This document shows, piece by piece, positions 26,370 through 32,639 of a stretch of 64,000 nucleotides of DNA. Position 1 is the stretch's first letter; every line of letters starts with the position of its first letter. The DNA is from Candidatus Bathyarchaeum sp. (GTDB lineage Archaea > Thermoproteota > Bathyarchaeia > Bathyarchaeales > Bathyarchaeaceae), in the NCBI GenBank assembly GCA_020344315.1, contig CP070820.1:218099-282098 (forward strand), written 5' to 3'. The notes beneath the pieces were generated by a model. The model was not told the origin of the DNA. It searched no databases and worked only from the letters and a program-made list of their open reading frames with translations. The position numbers and the translations under genes were made by a program.

Positions 26370-26828
26370 ATGAGGTTGACCATTCTTAAGAAGAAGAGTT
26401 ATTATGCTCTAGGTCTTACACTCGCTATTCTTGGAATCATAGTACTGCTTGTCGTGGTTTGGAGATGGTGGGCCACGGATGTTTTTTCATCCCCAGACAT
26501 CATTTCAGCAATAAACTCCAGCTTTGGAAATGAGGATGAACTTTTAGGTTTAGGATTGGGATTATCACTCCTTCCCTACACTATAATAGGAATTATATGT
26601 CTTGTAGTTGGTTCTGTTATTCTAGTTCTTCGAAGAGAAAGAGTTACTGTGACCGAAGAAGTTACCACGCTGCTTGAGTGCCCCCTCTGCAAACATCGAT
26701 GGGAAGAATCCAAGTCCAGAACACATTTGGAGTCGATAGGCTATCCTACTGTGCGAACCCTCTCCAGACACAGATGTCCAAAATGCGCCAAATTCATTCG
26801 CCCAAAAATTGTGGCAACAAAAAAGTGA
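26370..26828 (+). CDS. Two-helix membrane protein with C-terminal zinc ribbon
   Basis: 152 aa. Membrane helices at about residues 12-32 and 68-88, separated by an extracytoplasmic loop. The cytoplasmic C-terminal part has two Cys pairs, CPLCKHRW and CPKC, 34 residues apart, forming a zinc ribbon. No named family. Its start has no strong RBS; a TATA-like AACATACTAAATG is near 26340. Function unknown. Confidence 0.6.
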   Translation: MRLTILKKKSYYALGLTLAILGIIVLLVVVWRWWATDVFSSPDIISAINSSFGNEDELLGLGLGLSLLPYTIIGIICLVVGSVILVLRRERVTVTEEVTTLLECPLCKHRWEESKSRTHLESIGYPTVRTLSRHRCPKCAKFIRPKIVATKK

Positions 26829-26907: not shown

Positions 26908-26979
26908 GGGGTTTCTGAGGCGTACCACGGGGCGAATTTAAGGAGAAAGACACTGAAAATCCCAAGCGGCTGATATCGC
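26908..26979 (+). ncRNA. Candidate structured RNA element, copy A
   Basis: 72 nt highly similar to copy B at 31911-31983. The shared core is GCGTACCACGGGGCGA, followed by conserved AAGG, GAAAATCCC and AGC.GCT..ATCGC blocks in the same order. The 5' GGGGTTT (26908-26914) can pair with AAATCCC (26957-26963), 7 bp with one G-U. GCGA (26932-26935) can pair with TCGC (26976-26979) outside that stem, a possible pseudoknot. It lies between the 3' ends of convergent genes, so it is not a simple 5' leader. Orientation is taken from copy B, which has a well-spaced TATA-like box. Confidence 0.55.
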
Positions 26980-27093
26980 TTTTGGTAATTTTCATCTCTT
27001 ACCCGTGATGACGCCTTTTCAGTCCCTTGTTTTCCTCTGATGCTTTACTCCCCATAAAAAAAGGGAGGGAAATTTCTTTGTTTTTTAGTGTTT

Positions 27094-29721
27094 CTATTTG
27101 CGAGGTTTGAGCACCGAATATAGTGCGATTATCAGTGCGATGATGACTATCACTAGGATCACTATGACGTATGTTGTTAGGCTGCTAATTGACTCTTCAA
27201 CGTTGCTGACCGAACCCTCTACAGGTTCCAAATTAACTGCTTCTGGTGCTGGACCCACTGTAACATAGGTTGTGGCGCCTGAACTGCCATAAGAGTCGTC
27301 TCCCGCAAAAGCGGCAAGGATCTCGTACTTGCCCTCGTCTGGCGGAGTCCACTCATAGCCGAAGGTGCCATAATATCCGTTAGTTGTTGCTGTGCCAATG
27401 TCAGTGTAACCGCCGTCTTCACTCATAGCCGTCAAAGTAACTGGAACACCAGTTATCGTCTCATTTTCCCAGATTCCGCCGATTGGTCTCTGCAGATGCA
27501 AGTATTCCATTTGTAATGTCATTGAGTCTTTGGATACGCATGGTGTGCCTGGTTGAGCTGGAGACATGTCAAGCACTGTGCCTTTTATTGTGATGGCGGT
27601 TCCTTTTGGTACTGCAGCGTCAGGGGCTGTAACTGTTGTTTCGCTTTTGCCCTTGCCGAAGACGTATTGAGATCCGTCCCATGAGTTGGCGGCTGTGAGA
27701 TATCCATCTGCGACAGCACCAAAAGCCATAGGATTGCCTATTTTCCAGACAAGTTCGCCTGTGAAGATGTCAATGCAGTGGAGACCCCAACCTCTGGTCA
27801 TGGGCCAACTAGCAGTGTGCTCAGTATTGTATACGTACATCTTTCCGTCAGCAATCATGGCGCCGCCGTTGAATGGATAAACTCCTTCACCATCTTCGTT
27901 GATGTAGGGAGATTCATACACTGCAAGCGAAGGCGCTTGATAGTGCCATTCTATGGTTCCGTCGTCCCAGTTAAATGCGTAGACGCCGTCGTAGGCTTGC
28001 CGGAAGAACATTCCGTAAGCTGACTCTATAGAGTAAGCTCCGAAGCCAGCCTCTGACCATGGATGGTCCATCGTCTCGCTCTTCCATGCCAAGGTCCCAT
28101 CATCTAGATTGTATGCATAGAAGTAGCCGTTTTGCGTCAGCACCGCGATTTTTCCGTGGTCAGCGACATAGCACGATCTGCTGTATATCGGTTCGTCAAC
28201 ATTTACATTCCAGAGTATTTCGCCTGTTTCCAGATCGTAACCTTGTAGCTTAAATGCTTCATATACTCGTGTTGGACCATTCCAGCCATAAGCAGCTACA
28301 GTAACACCTATGCCTACATTGAAATCGATGTGCGGGTAGGTATGATAACGATATCCCGCTGTAGCAGAATCCGGATAGGTCGTGCTGACCCAGCTGGACT
28401 TGGCATAAGTTGTGTTGCTTATCACCCTGCTGGCAAAGTTGTTGCTGGATCCGGATGTTCTCCATTCAATCAAACGGTACTCGCCGCCACCAAGGTTCTG
28501 TATTGACTTGACTCGCTGGTTTGTGTAGTAGACGGATGTGCCTGATGACCACGATATTGGTGAAATATCGTATTCACTCGCAGCTCCTGTAAGTGGATTG
28601 AATTTAAACAGAGTGCTGCCGCTTATCGCCAAAAGCTCTACTGAAAAGGTTGTCTGTGCCTCAGCGCCGGGCACTGATCCCGCGCCTGGGTCATTATATG
28701 AGATGATGTTGGGTGAGACAGCTGTAACCTGTGGTCCAAAAAATCCCATCGTAGTAACTGTCGCTAGTGGGTATGATTCAAAATACACTTCTCCGGTACG
28801 TATGTCGTAGCACTGTAATACCGTCATCGCCGTACCATTCACAACTCTTGTAAGGGCATCGTAGCATCTTCCAGCATAGACCAGGCTTGGATTACCCGGA
28901 TTGCTAGTTGTGCCGTAATGATATGCGTATCCTCCTATGATGCCTGCTATGGTTTCTTGTCGTTTCCATGCTATGTGTGCAGTGTTTGGCCCTTGGACCC
29001 ATGGGTGGAAGTCATAGATTGGACTCCAGCTTGGATTCGTGTCAGGGTAGAGTTCGTCCCATACGGGACCGCCTCCGACATAGCCGGTGCCTGGCCAGCC
29101 TCCTAGGATCGGCCACCACTCTCTGTGTTCGAGAGAGGCGGGTCGTTCCCAGTAGTCTGTTGGAAGCCCCAAGTCAGGCCAAGAATACACAATGTCTTCC
29201 TGTACCGTGAGTGATAGTACTTCAGTAGAGCTGGGCTCATAGTACGTTGAGCCAAGCGTGACCGTTGGTCCTTCACCGAAACCGCCAGGAACGTCTCCTC
29301 CAGGGAAGTATGTTCCGTGGAATACAAATTGGAGCGTCCAATCGCCAACTTGGTCGGGTGTGAACTCGAACCATGCTGTTGTATCCGCTTCATAAGAATC
29401 AATAAAGGTGCTTTCTGCGTTGCCGTCGGGGTCTGTGATAATCACCTCATAATCCGGATGATATCGACTTCGATGAGTTGCGGGGTTAAGCCATAGGTTA
29501 ACCAGTATTGGCTGGTTAACGCCTACGGTGGTAGGTCTAAAGCTAAGAAAGGCTCTTGTAGCTTCTGTAACCTCAGGAGTAACTCCGGATGGTAGTGGTC
29601 CGCTAACTGGTTCATCTACAGCTTGCACTGGCACACTAGTCATTACCATGAAAGCAGAAATCATTAAAAGAACTATAGCGATTGTAGCCGTCAATTTAGC
29701 TTTGCTTGTTGAATGTTTCAT
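27094..29721 (-). CDS. Secreted PQQ-repeat beta-propeller protein with Ig-like domains and C-terminal anchor
   Basis: 875 aa from the ATG at 29721, chosen because AGGAGAT lies 6 nt upstream; the frame stays open to 29784. Signal peptide ~8-34. A beta-sandwich N-domain (LSFRPTTVGVNQPILVNLWL) precedes a PQQ/pyrrolo-quinoline-type propeller with repeats such as GYDLETGEILWNVNV, AYNLDDGTLAWKSE, AFNWDDGTIEWHYQ and CIDIFTGELVWKIG. An Ig-like domain (PPDEGKYEILAAFAGDDSYG) and a membrane helix (LTTYVIVILVIVIIALIIAL) with KPRK tail follow. Surface exposed; probably binding or scaffolding rather than quinone enzyme. Divergent from a tandem-Lrp regulator, which may control it. Confidence 0.8.
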   Translation of the reverse strand: MKHSTSKAKLTATIAIVLLMISAFMVMTSVPVQAVDEPVSGPLPSGVTPEVTEATRAFLSFRPTTVGVNQPILVNLWLNPATHRSRYHPDYEVIITDPDGNAESTFIDSYEADTTAWFEFTPDQVGDWTLQFVFHGTYFPGGDVPGGFGEGPTVTLGSTYYEPSSTEVLSLTVQEDIVYSWPDLGLPTDYWERPASLEHREWWPILGGWPGTGYVGGGPVWDELYPDTNPSWSPIYDFHPWVQGPNTAHIAWKRQETIAGIIGGYAYHYGTTSNPGNPSLVYAGRCYDALTRVVNGTAMTVLQCYDIRTGEVYFESYPLATVTTMGFFGPQVTAVSPNIISYNDPGAGSVPGAEAQTTFSVELLAISGSTLFKFNPLTGAASEYDISPISWSSGTSVYYTNQRVKSIQNLGGGEYRLIEWRTSGSSNNFASRVISNTTYAKSSWVSTTYPDSATAGYRYHTYPHIDFNVGIGVTVAAYGWNGPTRVYEAFKLQGYDLETGEILWNVNVDEPIYSRSCYVADHGKIAVLTQNGYFYAYNLDDGTLAWKSETMDHPWSEAGFGAYSIESAYGMFFRQAYDGVYAFNWDDGTIEWHYQAPSLAVYESPYINEDGEGVYPFNGGAMIADGKMYVYNTEHTASWPMTRGWGLHCIDIFTGELVWKIGNPMAFGAVADGYLTAANSWDGSQYVFGKGKSETTVTAPDAAVPKGTAITIKGTVLDMSPAQPGTPCVSKDSMTLQMEYLHLQRPIGGIWENETITGVPVTLTAMSEDGGYTDIGTATTNGYYGTFGYEWTPPDEGKYEILAAFAGDDSYGSSGATTYVTVGPAPEAVNLEPVEGSVSNVEESISSLTTYVIVILVIVIIALIIALYSVLKPRK

Positions 29722-29907
29722 TTTTTTATCTCCTAATAGACAGAAAACACCTTGATTGGCTTGTATATTTAATACTTTCTCCATATTGCATTAACTTTAT
29801 TGCACAAAATAAAATTCTTATGTGTTTTTAGTTTTAAATGTGCAAAAGATATTTATGGGGTTGAATAAATATCGTTGCTAAACTCGTTTGAGAAGGACCC
29901 CAAAGAA

Positions 29908-30960
29908 ATGAGCGCTGGACCAAAAATTGACGAAATTAATGCTAAAATTTTAAAGGCATTACTTAAGGAGCCGAGAACCAGTTTTACGGAAATCGCTAAA
30001 GAATGTGGGCTATCGAATACTTCTATAAAAAACAGATTTGATCGTATGAAGAAATCGGGGATAATTAACGGTGCAATCATGCAAATAAACCCAAGAAGTT
30101 TTGGGTATGATTGTATTGCATTTGCAAATATCGAAGTAGATCCCAGAGAAAAGGTAAGAGTTTATGAATTCCTTAAAAAGCAACAATTCGCCATTTATCC
30201 CGCCCAGTTAACTGGCAGAAACGTCATCCTAGGATTTGTAGTTTCTAAAAATACAGATGATCTGTCCCGAATCGTAAAACAAATCCAAAGTCACCCTAAC
30301 ATTAGATCTGTTTCTACAGCAATCTGGATTGACATAACAAACATGGATCACCCCGAAAACCTGATTGTTGAAGCAACTGATACAATGCCGAATCCAAACA
30401 TGGTGCAGTCCAAGGAGAAAGTGAGCCATGCCATCACACCTAAGCAGACAGACATTGATTTGGAGGCAAAAGGGAAAAAAATCAACAAAGCACGTCAATT
30501 AGACAAAATTGATATTGCACTGATCAAGTTGCTGTCGAAAGATGCTCGTCTTTCTTTCAGAAGCATCGCGAAAAAGCTGGGTATTTCTCCTAATAATGTC
30601 ATCAAAAGATACAAAGAATTAAGGAAAAATGTTCTTCCTTTTTCTTCAATAACTGTAAACCTGCAAAACTTGGGGTACATGGGCACAGGCGTTATGTTGA
30701 TTAATGTCTCAAGCAAGCACTCGGTGGATCAGACGTTTGACAGATTATTGCGGATTCCAAATGTAATAGTGACCATAAAGCTTTTCGATTATTATGATAT
30801 CTTGGCGATAGCGCCTTTTAGAGTTCTTGAGGATTTGCACGATTTGAAAGAAGAAATTTCCAATATTTCAGGTGTTAATGAAATTAACCTAATGGTAGAT
30901 AAGCCCTATAAGAAATGGCCCTTAAACATGATTTCCGAGCTAATAATAAAGAACCTTTAG
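29908..30960 (+). CDS. Tandem Lrp/AsnC regulator (two HTH-RAM units fused)
   Basis: Two complete Lrp-like units in one chain. Unit 1 has an HTH at IDEINAKILKALLKEPRTSF and GLSNTSIKNRFDRM, then a RAM domain. Unit 2, after a charged linker (~residue 180), has an HTH at LDKIDIALIKLLSKDARLSF and GISPNNVIKRYKEL, then a second RAM-like domain. The internal duplication would make a monomer equal to a normal dimer. ATG 29908 is preferred; TTG 29875 is in frame and could serve a leaderless mRNA from the TATA-like sequence near 29850. Divergently transcribed from the PQQ-repeat surface protein. Confidence 0.78.
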   Translation: MSAGPKIDEINAKILKALLKEPRTSFTEIAKECGLSNTSIKNRFDRMKKSGIINGAIMQINPRSFGYDCIAFANIEVDPREKVRVYEFLKKQQFAIYPAQLTGRNVILGFVVSKNTDDLSRIVKQIQSHPNIRSVSTAIWIDITNMDHPENLIVEATDTMPNPNMVQSKEKVSHAITPKQTDIDLEAKGKKINKARQLDKIDIALIKLLSKDARLSFRSIAKKLGISPNNVIKRYKELRKNVLPFSSITVNLQNLGYMGTGVMLINVSSKHSVDQTFDRLLRIPNVIVTIKLFDYYDILAIAPFRVLEDLHDLKEEISNISGVNEINLMVDKPYKKWPLNMISELIIKNL

Positions 30961-31031
30961 GCGATTGAAAATTTTTCTGTAAACAACATACTCGAGAAAT
31001 TGTTTCTATGATGCTGAAGCATTTTTTAAAA

Positions 31032-31610
31032 CTAAGATGGGTTAACCGCTGAATGGAAAACTTTCACTCTTTCAAATATTTTGTATCCTAAATGTCCGCC
31101 AACTATGCTTTCAATTATTATTATTGGAAGCATAAATGACATCAGACTAAGGAAACCTGAGAGAGCTTGTGGAGCATATAATAAGTAGTATAGGATTGTG
31201 AAGATTTGATTGATTGGATGAAATATCAACGAAAACATGATGGACAACAAAAGCAATTTATTATGCGTTTTAAAGAATCCATAAATGCTGTTGAATAGCA
31301 TGTCACCAAAAATGGCGGTAACTACTAGTGGTACACGAGCCAGTATATCATAGGGCGGCCCAATGAAATATGTGGGAAGGGTGAGGAGAACGAATAATAT
31401 TGTTGAGAATAAAAATCTCCATCTTCCTCCATAATATAAGAGCAATTGAGCACTGATGAATATTACATGACCAACAATGAAAAGGTACCCTGCTCCCCGT
31501 ATTCCAGTCAGGGGAGCTATTTGAGCCACAAAGAGGGTGTACACTAGACCTAACACAGCAAAAATAACTACTGTAGTTAAATCTTTGCTTGTCCACAAGA
31601 ACATGCACAA
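31032..31610 (-). CDS. Six-helix membrane protein, ECF-S-like
   Basis: 192 aa, almost entirely hydrophobic, with about six membrane segments. The size, the first segment (KDLTTVVIFAVLGLVYTLFV) and PLTGIRGAGYLF resemble substrate-binding S components of ECF vitamin transporters, but no clear family signature is seen. No A or T component lies nearby in this window. Start near a poor RBS. Monocistronic. Confidence 0.5.
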   Translation of the reverse strand: MCMFLWTSKDLTTVVIFAVLGLVYTLFVAQIAPLTGIRGAGYLFIVGHVIFISAQLLLYYGGRWRFLFSTILFVLLTLPTYFIGPPYDILARVPLVVTAIFGDMLFNSIYGFFKTHNKLLLLSIMFSLIFHPINQIFTILYYLLYAPQALSGFLSLMSFMLPIIIIESIVGGHLGYKIFERVKVFHSAVNPS

Positions 31611-31881
31611 TCCTGCTTTTGTTGCGCACTTATTCCCTTTTCATCATTTAAATGCCTTACGATGGTGCCTAAAAAATTAGGCTAGTGATAAAATTGCACA
31701 TAACCTGTGCTAATTTGAAAGCTAATTCACGTTAACATTAGAGACATCTTACGCAACTCCTTTTTTATCCAGAATCTATGTTTTGGTTTGCTTTTTGAGA
31801 TGCTACGAAGAAACATCAGCTACCTACTTATTAAACAAAAAGTTGAAAAAGGAGCAAATTTAACAAGATTTCGATAAAAAG

Positions 31882-31889
31882 CTTAAAAT
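31882..31889 (+). promoter_or_regulatory. TATA-like box of RNA element copy B
   Basis: CTTAAAAT centred about 26 bp upstream of the first base of the conserved element (31911), which is the archaeal TATA-to-start spacing. Confidence 0.4.
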
Positions 31890-31910
31890 GCAGATAAACA
31901 AGAGGAAGAG

Positions 31911-31983
31911 AGGGTTTCCTGAAGCGTACCACGGGGCGATTCAAGGGAGATAAAAAATGAAAATCCCCAGCTGCTACAATCGC
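31911..31983 (+). ncRNA. Candidate structured RNA element, copy B
   Basis: Close match to copy A at 26908, sharing GCGTACCACGGGGCGA and the flanking blocks. GGGTTT (31912-31917) pairs with AAATCC (31961-31966). GCGATT (31936-31941) pairs with AATCGC (31978-31983), 6 bp, outside the first stem and so a potential pseudoknot; in copy A the equivalent pairing is 4 bp. A TATA-like box sits 26 bp upstream. It ends 12 bp before a phosphoribosyltransferase ATG, so it could be a 5' leader or a separate RNA. Confidence 0.55.
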
Positions 31984-31994
31984 GCGCTAATACA

Positions 31995-32639
31995 ATGAGA
32001 GAATTAAACAAAAGAAACCAAAAAACCCCAGTCCCTAGCTTAGGGAACAATCTGGAGTTTGAGATTCCCTCATGGGATCAAATTTACAGTCTTCTCCTGA
32101 ATCTAGCTGGAGCAATTCAAAAAAGTGAATTTGAATCGGACGTAATCGTCGGCATTTCCAGAGGCGGCTGGCTTCCAGCTCGAATAATATCAGACCTACT
32201 GGAAAATCCTAAACTAGCGAACGTAGCAGCAAAGTTTTATGTGGGAGTAGCCGAAACCAAAGGTAAACCTGCCATCACGCAGCCAGTCTCTATTCCAGTT
32301 AAAAACAAAAAAGTTCTTGTTGTTGACGATGTTGCAGATACGGGTGAGAGCCTCAAACTCGTACACTCCCATCTGAAGAAGCAAGGTGCATCAGAAATTA
32401 AGATTGCAACCATCTACTATAAACCATGGAGCACCATGGTTCCAGACTACTACGAAAAAGAAACGCGCTGCTGGATCGTTTTCCCTTGGGAGAGAAAAGA
32501 AACCGTTAGAAAAACTGTGGAAAAGTTCAGAGGCGAAGGAAAAACAGTGGAAGATGCAAAAGAAAAGCTGATTAGTTCCGGATTAAACAAGAGACTCGTG
32601 GAACAGTTCATCAAAGAAATCTTCGGGGAAACACCTTGA
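31995..32639 (+). CDS. Phosphoribosyltransferase (purine/xanthine type), paralogue 1
   Basis: 214 aa type I PRTase. The PRPP-binding motif is KVLVVDDVADTGESLKLV; VIVGISRGGWLPARI is the N-terminal loop that binds pyrophosphate; WIVFPWERKETVR is the C-terminal hood found in archaeal hypoxanthine/xanthine PRTases. About 50 extra C-terminal residues (KTVEDAKEKLISSGLNKRLV) look like a small helical domain. The KEOPS gene cgi121 starts inside its stop codon. A paralogue lies at 36695. The base accepted cannot be told from sequence. Confidence 0.85.
   Translation: MRELNKRNQKTPVPSLGNNLEFEIPSWDQIYSLLLNLAGAIQKSEFESDVIVGISRGGWLPARIISDLLENPKLANVAAKFYVGVAETKGKPAITQPVSIPVKNKKVLVVDDVADTGESLKLVHSHLKKQGASEIKIATIYYKPWSTMVPDYYEKETRCWIVFPWERKETVRKTVEKFRGEGKTVEDAKEKLISSGLNKRLVEQFIKEIFGETP

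Follow-up and report, generated by a model that had tools for sequence, protein, structure and literature searches.

A candidate structured RNA family encoded behind surface-protein genes in one order of Bathyarchaeia

Background

Bathyarchaeia are abundant sediment archaea with almost no genetics, and structured 3' elements that are common to a whole gene family appear, in the literature covered, to be little known in archaea. Archaeal SECIS elements are structures carried by the 3' UTRs of some archaeal mRNAs; the element described here differs from them in that the gene-linked proteins that we fetched are open-framed up to their stop codons, no selenocysteine link was seen, and Rfam gave no match in the sequences searched. 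Integron attC cassettes are alike in that an imperfect hairpin containing unpaired bases comes after the gene, in the same orientation and sometimes in tandem, but here no integrase scored over the cut-off and all genes belong to one family; the core motifs of attC also differ from the ends of our element.

The closest parallel in logic comes from trypanosomes, in which the shared 3' UTR element of variant surface glycoprotein (VSG) mRNAs is a 16-mer that is CFB2-dependent. According to the available parts of two reports (PMC8051951, PMC9044945), these mRNAs belong to a large surface-protein family, and the shared element is tied to mRNA stability. The present case is likewise a surface-protein family sharing a conserved 3' element (a likeness of logic, with no homology claimed), whereas the VSG element is eukaryotic, short and linear and the Bathyarchaeial element is a covarying hairpin of ~110 nt. 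In archaea, aCPSF1 (FttA) binds the U-tracts of terminators and cleaves downstream, as stated in the available part of PMC8716108; the U-run that we find between stop codon and element resembles these terminators, which are described there as a U-run plus a factor, a conserved downstream structured RNA being absent from that part of the description.

Results

Two copies in the window and eleven in the host genome

The window, i.e., the whole stretch of 64 kb that was analysed, corresponds to positions 218099-282098 of the host genome (G000, a single contig of 1,556,845 bases). The first-pass annotation had reported two copies of a conserved RNA-like element of ~72 nt, at 26908-26979 (copy A) and 31911-31983 (copy B). 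Both intervals have GCGTACCACGGGGCGA and further blocks in common, in the same order and far beyond chance, and the view that this is a conserved RNA-like element was borne out by many homologues and by genuine covariation (see below). The length had to be revised, since homology of copy A extends to ~27072, and 72 nt had been reported because copy B is truncated. The flanks, described as unrelated, are so outside the element, but the stretch 26980-27072 is homologous. Contrary to the earlier reading, it is most likely the minus strand that is structured, and the long outer stem joins 26908-26930 with 27001-27026, half of it outside the interval first reported. The features, in minus-strand order from the gene through copy A, followed by copy B, are:

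27094-29784, minus strand: gene for a secreted, C-terminally anchored surface protein of 896 aa (an ORF with paralogues in the host and in related genomes), its stop codon followed by copy A
27044-27072, minus strand: C-rich, U7 and G-rich stretch right after the stop codon, reading TTTCCCTCCCTTTTTTTATGGGGAGTAAA
26908-27026, minus strand: element copy A, full length (~120 nt), with the clamp GG-(R)CUG ... CAG-AAA-CCC, a variable covarying stem and a putative inner hairpin
27001-27026, minus strand: 5' arm of the long outer stem, with a 3-nt bulge (plus-strand TTT at 27017-27019)
26950-27000, minus strand: putative inner hairpin with an apical loop stretch, from MFE folds; its sequence differs among lineages
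26908-26930, minus strand: 3' arm of the outer stem, with an AAA bulge (plus-strand TTT at 26912-26914) and the terminal CCC
31911-31983, minus strand: element copy B, a remnant with the 3' part only, its 5' half lost (matching query positions 1-74 of 120)

Copy A lies, as annotated, between converging genes (26370-26828, plus strand, and 27094-29784, minus strand). Copy B ends 11 nt short of the start codon of a phosphoribosyltransferase-like ORF at 31995, and no surface-protein gene adjoins it; the TATA-like box that had been pointed out upstream of it on the plus strand is not common to the copies, the plus-strand upstream flanks being unrelated. Beyond the end of copy A at 27026, sequence is conserved up to ~27072, and the U7 stretch within 27044-27072 is possibly a terminator-like U-run in the loop of a small hairpin.

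With a 120-nt query composed from the copies, 11 copies were found in the host genome, where a pattern search had already shown further ones: ten are full-length and the eleventh is copy B (E-value 5.8e-25, compared with 3e-47 to 1.4e-28 for the nine further copies). Apart from copy A, seven of the nine full-length copies stand behind homologous genes of 839-920 aa and the remaining two adjoin gaps of 100 N. Such 100-N scaffold gaps occur at three element sites of the single contig (L024, L025 and L149), and the assembly was therefore probably broken by the repeated 3' ends.

The surface-protein gene and the stop-to-element spacer

The protein of 896 aa encoded next to copy A contains a PQQ_2/BamB-like beta-propeller region (residues 514-621; PF13360, 3.5e-11) and a hydrophobic C-terminal anchor with basic residues at its end. 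On the minus strand, a C-rich stretch, U7, a G-rich stretch and then the hairpin follow one another, starting a few nt past the stop codon. Among 80 distinct gene-linked spacers, the distance from the stop codon to the core is 40-90 nt (median 56.5); 78 contain a U/T run of at least five, 70 a C-rich stretch and then a T run, and 35 also GGG after it. Family genes that lack the element still have the U-run, and the element is therefore not essential to the family; judged from these sequences, it is an optional but placed addition downstream of a terminator-like run.

Covariation in the variable stem and moderate support for the gene-sense strand

Near-identical copies were merged, giving 88, and the loci L107 and L128, which lack the anchors, were dropped; 83 of the 88 copies passed the anchor and length filters and entered the pairing, stem and opposite-strand ORF tests, and 82 the pseudoknot test. 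The fold would be closed by a conserved clamp, GG-GCUG-ARN ... CAGC-AAA-CC, in which each strand has a 3-nt bulge (A-R-N on the 5' side, AAA on the 3' side) and which encloses a variable stem. In an alignment (A3) of 41 distinct copies, 93.7% of 615 cells were paired, the clamp counts being biased because nearly all copies had been picked for exact clamp ends and 23 of the 41 came from a pattern scan in which the clamp sequence was fixed; the stem pairs of columns 13-18 with 121-126 lie outside this selection. Two-sided changes occurred in eight of the 15 pairs, all of them in the 9-bp stem (eight of its nine pairs), none of 500 shuffles reached any of five measures, and sliding by one column reduced pairing to 43-57%. 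In the 83 copies, compared ungapped, the first eight pairs were standard in 558 of 664 cells versus 481 +/- 7 in 2,000 shuffles. That the gene-sense strand is the structured one is moderately supported by the excess of G-U wobbles over A-C mismatches (48 versus 30 in the 83 copies, the cells not being independent). The clamp itself is almost invariant and therefore has no covariation support of its own; its pairing is plausible.

The putative inner hairpin recurs in MFE folds. When 22 copies were aligned by sequence alone with MAFFT, RNAalifold recovered no more than 12 outer pairs, owing to misalignment of the inner part. Neither of the pairings proposed in the first-pass annotation is conserved: an inner hexamer able to pair with the 3' terminal hexamer is present in 10 of the 83 non-redundant copies (gene-sense strand only), and the GCGAT/ATCGC-like pair of the outer pairing, or possible pseudoknot, is kept in 6 of 83. 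For a possible pseudoknot, GGAGAAA with UUUCUCC, complementarity scored 15.87 when matched, above the flank controls (12.8 and 12.4) but scarcely above permuted pairings (15.39 +/- 0.27; 82 copies). Covariation, named at the outset as a check on the element, was thus found, and the copies display both a conserved secondary structure and compensatory changes, the marks of a candidate structured RNA.

Distribution among genomes

Covariance-model searches of the genome and its relatives, which had also been proposed, yielded further homologues. Of 61 genomes, 6 gave a match in a DNA search and 9 with a first covariance model; a second model, for which the outer structure was given by hand, picked up the element (E <= 1e-4) in 42 of the 256 genomes searched in the class. 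The copy-A protein was present in 60 of the same 256 genomes (E <= 1e-20): 39 genomes have both, 3 the element alone, 21 the protein alone and 193 neither. Among the matches listed, the element-positive genomes all belong to one order of Bathyarchaeia. We also scanned 84,980 species genomes with a pattern fixed on the clamp (GGGCTGA, GG and CYYCAGCAAACCC), which returned 66 stretches, 60 of them in records titled Bathyarchaeota or Bathyarchaeum and one in a record titled Crenarchaeota; four of the 66 resemble background. In viral contigs the clamp pattern had no match. One more of the 66, with two matches, is on a contig labelled Tenericutes bacterium M17C-02 (L219, JANKMU010000033.1), which carries two surface-protein genes with the element; it is probably mis-binned (from a Bathyarchaeum of the same sample series), because the same genes are present.

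Gene linkage and orphan copies

We fetched 70 elements from six genomes: 51 of them follow a family gene, 16 are orphans and 3 are undecidable at gaps or contig ends. In the pattern-scan set from named genomes, which overlaps the genomes of the former set and leaves out four background hits (L226, L249, L263, L266) and three contig-edge elements, 52 of 61 are gene-linked. Orientation and position behind family genes are fixed in most copies. The earlier statement that the element is not just the leader of one gene was incomplete: the element mainly accompanies the genes of one family, on their 3' side, although about a quarter of the fetched copies lack such a gene.

Some orphans lie upstream of unrelated genes, and two pairs (L106/L128 and L107/L126) occupy orthologous places in two species. 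Five orphans (L100, L106, L123, L128 and L148) lie ~40-60 nt behind a palindromic promoter-like motif, a link that was seen by eye. The motif reads TCAARRTTTCTTGA-N-AAAACC and has 4, 3, 18 and 21 sites in G000, G001, G002 and G003, respectively, versus 0-1 in the reversed control; since its sites exceed this control and also occur without orphans, it is a real motif that is not orphan-specific, and it looks like the operator of an unrecognised regulator beside a promoter. In G051, three gene-plus-element units follow one another in the same orientation on contig C38, at ~76.9, 81.0 and 84.3 kb (L137, L132, L136), in a cassette-like arrangement.

The orphans bear on the idea that the element yields a separate stable sRNA, i.e., that aCPSF1 would cut behind the U-run, the folded downstream piece would survive, and promoter-bearing orphans would give the same RNA. 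Of 80 distinct gene-linked copies, 78 lie right behind the U-run, which fits this idea, as do the five orphans behind the motif and the orthologous sites in two species. For most copies, however, no dedicated promoter is recognised, many element-free places also bear the motif, and the link of the motif to the orphans was made by eye, the test having covered only the excess of the motif over the reversed control. We consider a separate sRNA unlikely.

Divergence of elements and gene bodies

Within the host genome, the elements are 76-92% identical (79-92% in the core) and the protein bodies 32-68% (a rough comparison of nucleotide with amino-acid identity), and between families (G000, G002 and G003 versus G051 and G039) the elements average 67-71% identity. 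Spearman coefficients between body and element similarity were -0.03 in G000, 0.13 in G002, 0.45 in G003 and 0.01 in G051, and those between body and C-terminal anchor similarity -0.02, 0.14, 0.50 and -0.13, respectively. When G002 was compared with G003, in 6 of 14 cases the best body partner was also the one whose element was most similar. Elements that are alike behind diverged bodies, with uncorrelated similarities, point in the host genome to strong constraint, to exchange of 3' modules, or to both. The copy-A protein (27094-29784, minus strand) and that of L022 in the same genome have bodies that are 68% identical and C-terminal anchors that are only 29% identical; by this comparison they are mosaic surface proteins.

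Terminators in archaea are generally described as U-runs that lack a hairpin. The element could be a backup terminator of transcription, or a passive 3' end hitchhiking with gene duplication, and this would suit the placement behind the gene, the long hairpin and the position of several elements between converging genes (e.g., copy A), but a U-run already lies upstream of the element, a mere terminator would need neither the strong constraint on clamp and bulges nor a preserved stem, and within a genome the elements resemble one another more closely than the gene bodies do (on the rough nucleotide versus amino-acid comparison above); we regard this explanation as very unlikely.

A further alternative is a DNA element, namely a hairpin-forming site of recombination or mobility, similar to a MITE or to attC, at the 3' boundary of surface-gene cassettes that can be exchanged. 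Tandem units in some genomes (such as G051), the uncorrelated similarities of body, C-terminus and element in G000 (as if modules shuffle), the variable presence of the element among family genes and the existence of orphans are all compatible with such a site. The single orientation and the narrow distance past the stop codon speak against it, as do a stem that covaries instead of showing identity by descent, the lack of target-site duplications on inspection and of any match in viral contigs, the absence of integron integrases above the cut-off in seven genomes and of the attC core motifs, and the fact that gene partners in G002 and G003 retain elements (in 6 of 14 cases the top-ranking element is that of the partner). 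On balance, a DNA element seems unlikely.

Comparison with known families

The first-pass annotation recognised no known RNA family, and Rfam had no match to the element in the sequences searched. At gathering thresholds (Rfam 15), the whole window holds a single tRNA match; lax thresholds added only sub-gathering chance matches around copy A, copy B and L207, and the orphan loci gave tRNAs only. An archaeal C/D or H/ACA guide RNA was rejected, with only sub-gathering chance matches to C/D families (snR50, sR44), and so was a short ORF on the opposite strand, whose frames and peptides differ among copies (ATG was present in 17 and absent in 3 of the 20 inspected, out of 83). The integron attC site was likewise rejected, the integron integrase model TIGR02249 scoring over the cut-off in none of seven genomes; tyrosine recombinases below the cut-off in that search also match in all 14 control genomes. 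A viral origin was discarded on the result for viral contigs. As to a MITE or insertion-sequence end, which the annotation had named as an alternative, no transposon-end match and, by eye, no target-site duplication were seen, orientation and distance are fixed in most copies, and orphans exist. No description of such an element was found in the literature covered, most subscription journals and bioRxiv preprints lying outside it, and the element is apparently undescribed. We therefore propose, with high confidence, a new candidate family of structured RNA at or just past the 3' ends of surface-protein genes.

Discussion

Our best guess, from comparative sequence data, is that the element serves as a family-wide signal for the 3' end or the stability of mRNAs, with a trans-acting reader. 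An element of ~100-125 nt is encoded just past the U-run terminator of multi-copy genes for secreted beta-propeller-like surface proteins; transcripts that read through or beyond the U-run would carry it; its RNA would fold as a long hairpin, which would be stable against decay, or bound via the clamp bulges and the loop, or both; and a trans-acting factor, presumed to be a protein, would set the 3' end or the lifetime of all family mRNAs together. We give this whole chain, from a transcribed and folded element behind the U-run to a bound factor, roughly an even chance. Since aCPSF1 cuts downstream of U-tracts, according to the available part of PMC8716108, an element located there is well sited for the 3'-end machinery. 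Against a signal of this kind, most transcripts could already end at the U-run that separates the element from its gene, 21 of the 60 protein-bearing genomes have no element match, and orphan copies exist. In an extended form, which we think improbable, a family-wide RNA code would operate, in which a single trans-acting factor reads the folded 3' element that 10-25 surface-protein transcripts share in each genome, promoter-driven orphans act as decoys or titrating sRNAs, and homogenised elements serve as recombination anchors for shuffling of the repertoire.

Bathyarchaeum tardum, one of the member species, is kept in enrichment culture (the available part of its description mentions an S-layer and not PQQ; PMC10477458), and transcripts can therefore be sought. 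In one order of Bathyarchaeia, a covarying RNA appears to mark a large family of surface proteins: if the element acts at the RNA level, it would offer a testable handle on post-transcriptional control in Bathyarchaeia, and if it acts at the DNA level, it would indicate a new system by which archaea shuffle the gene cassettes of their cell surfaces.
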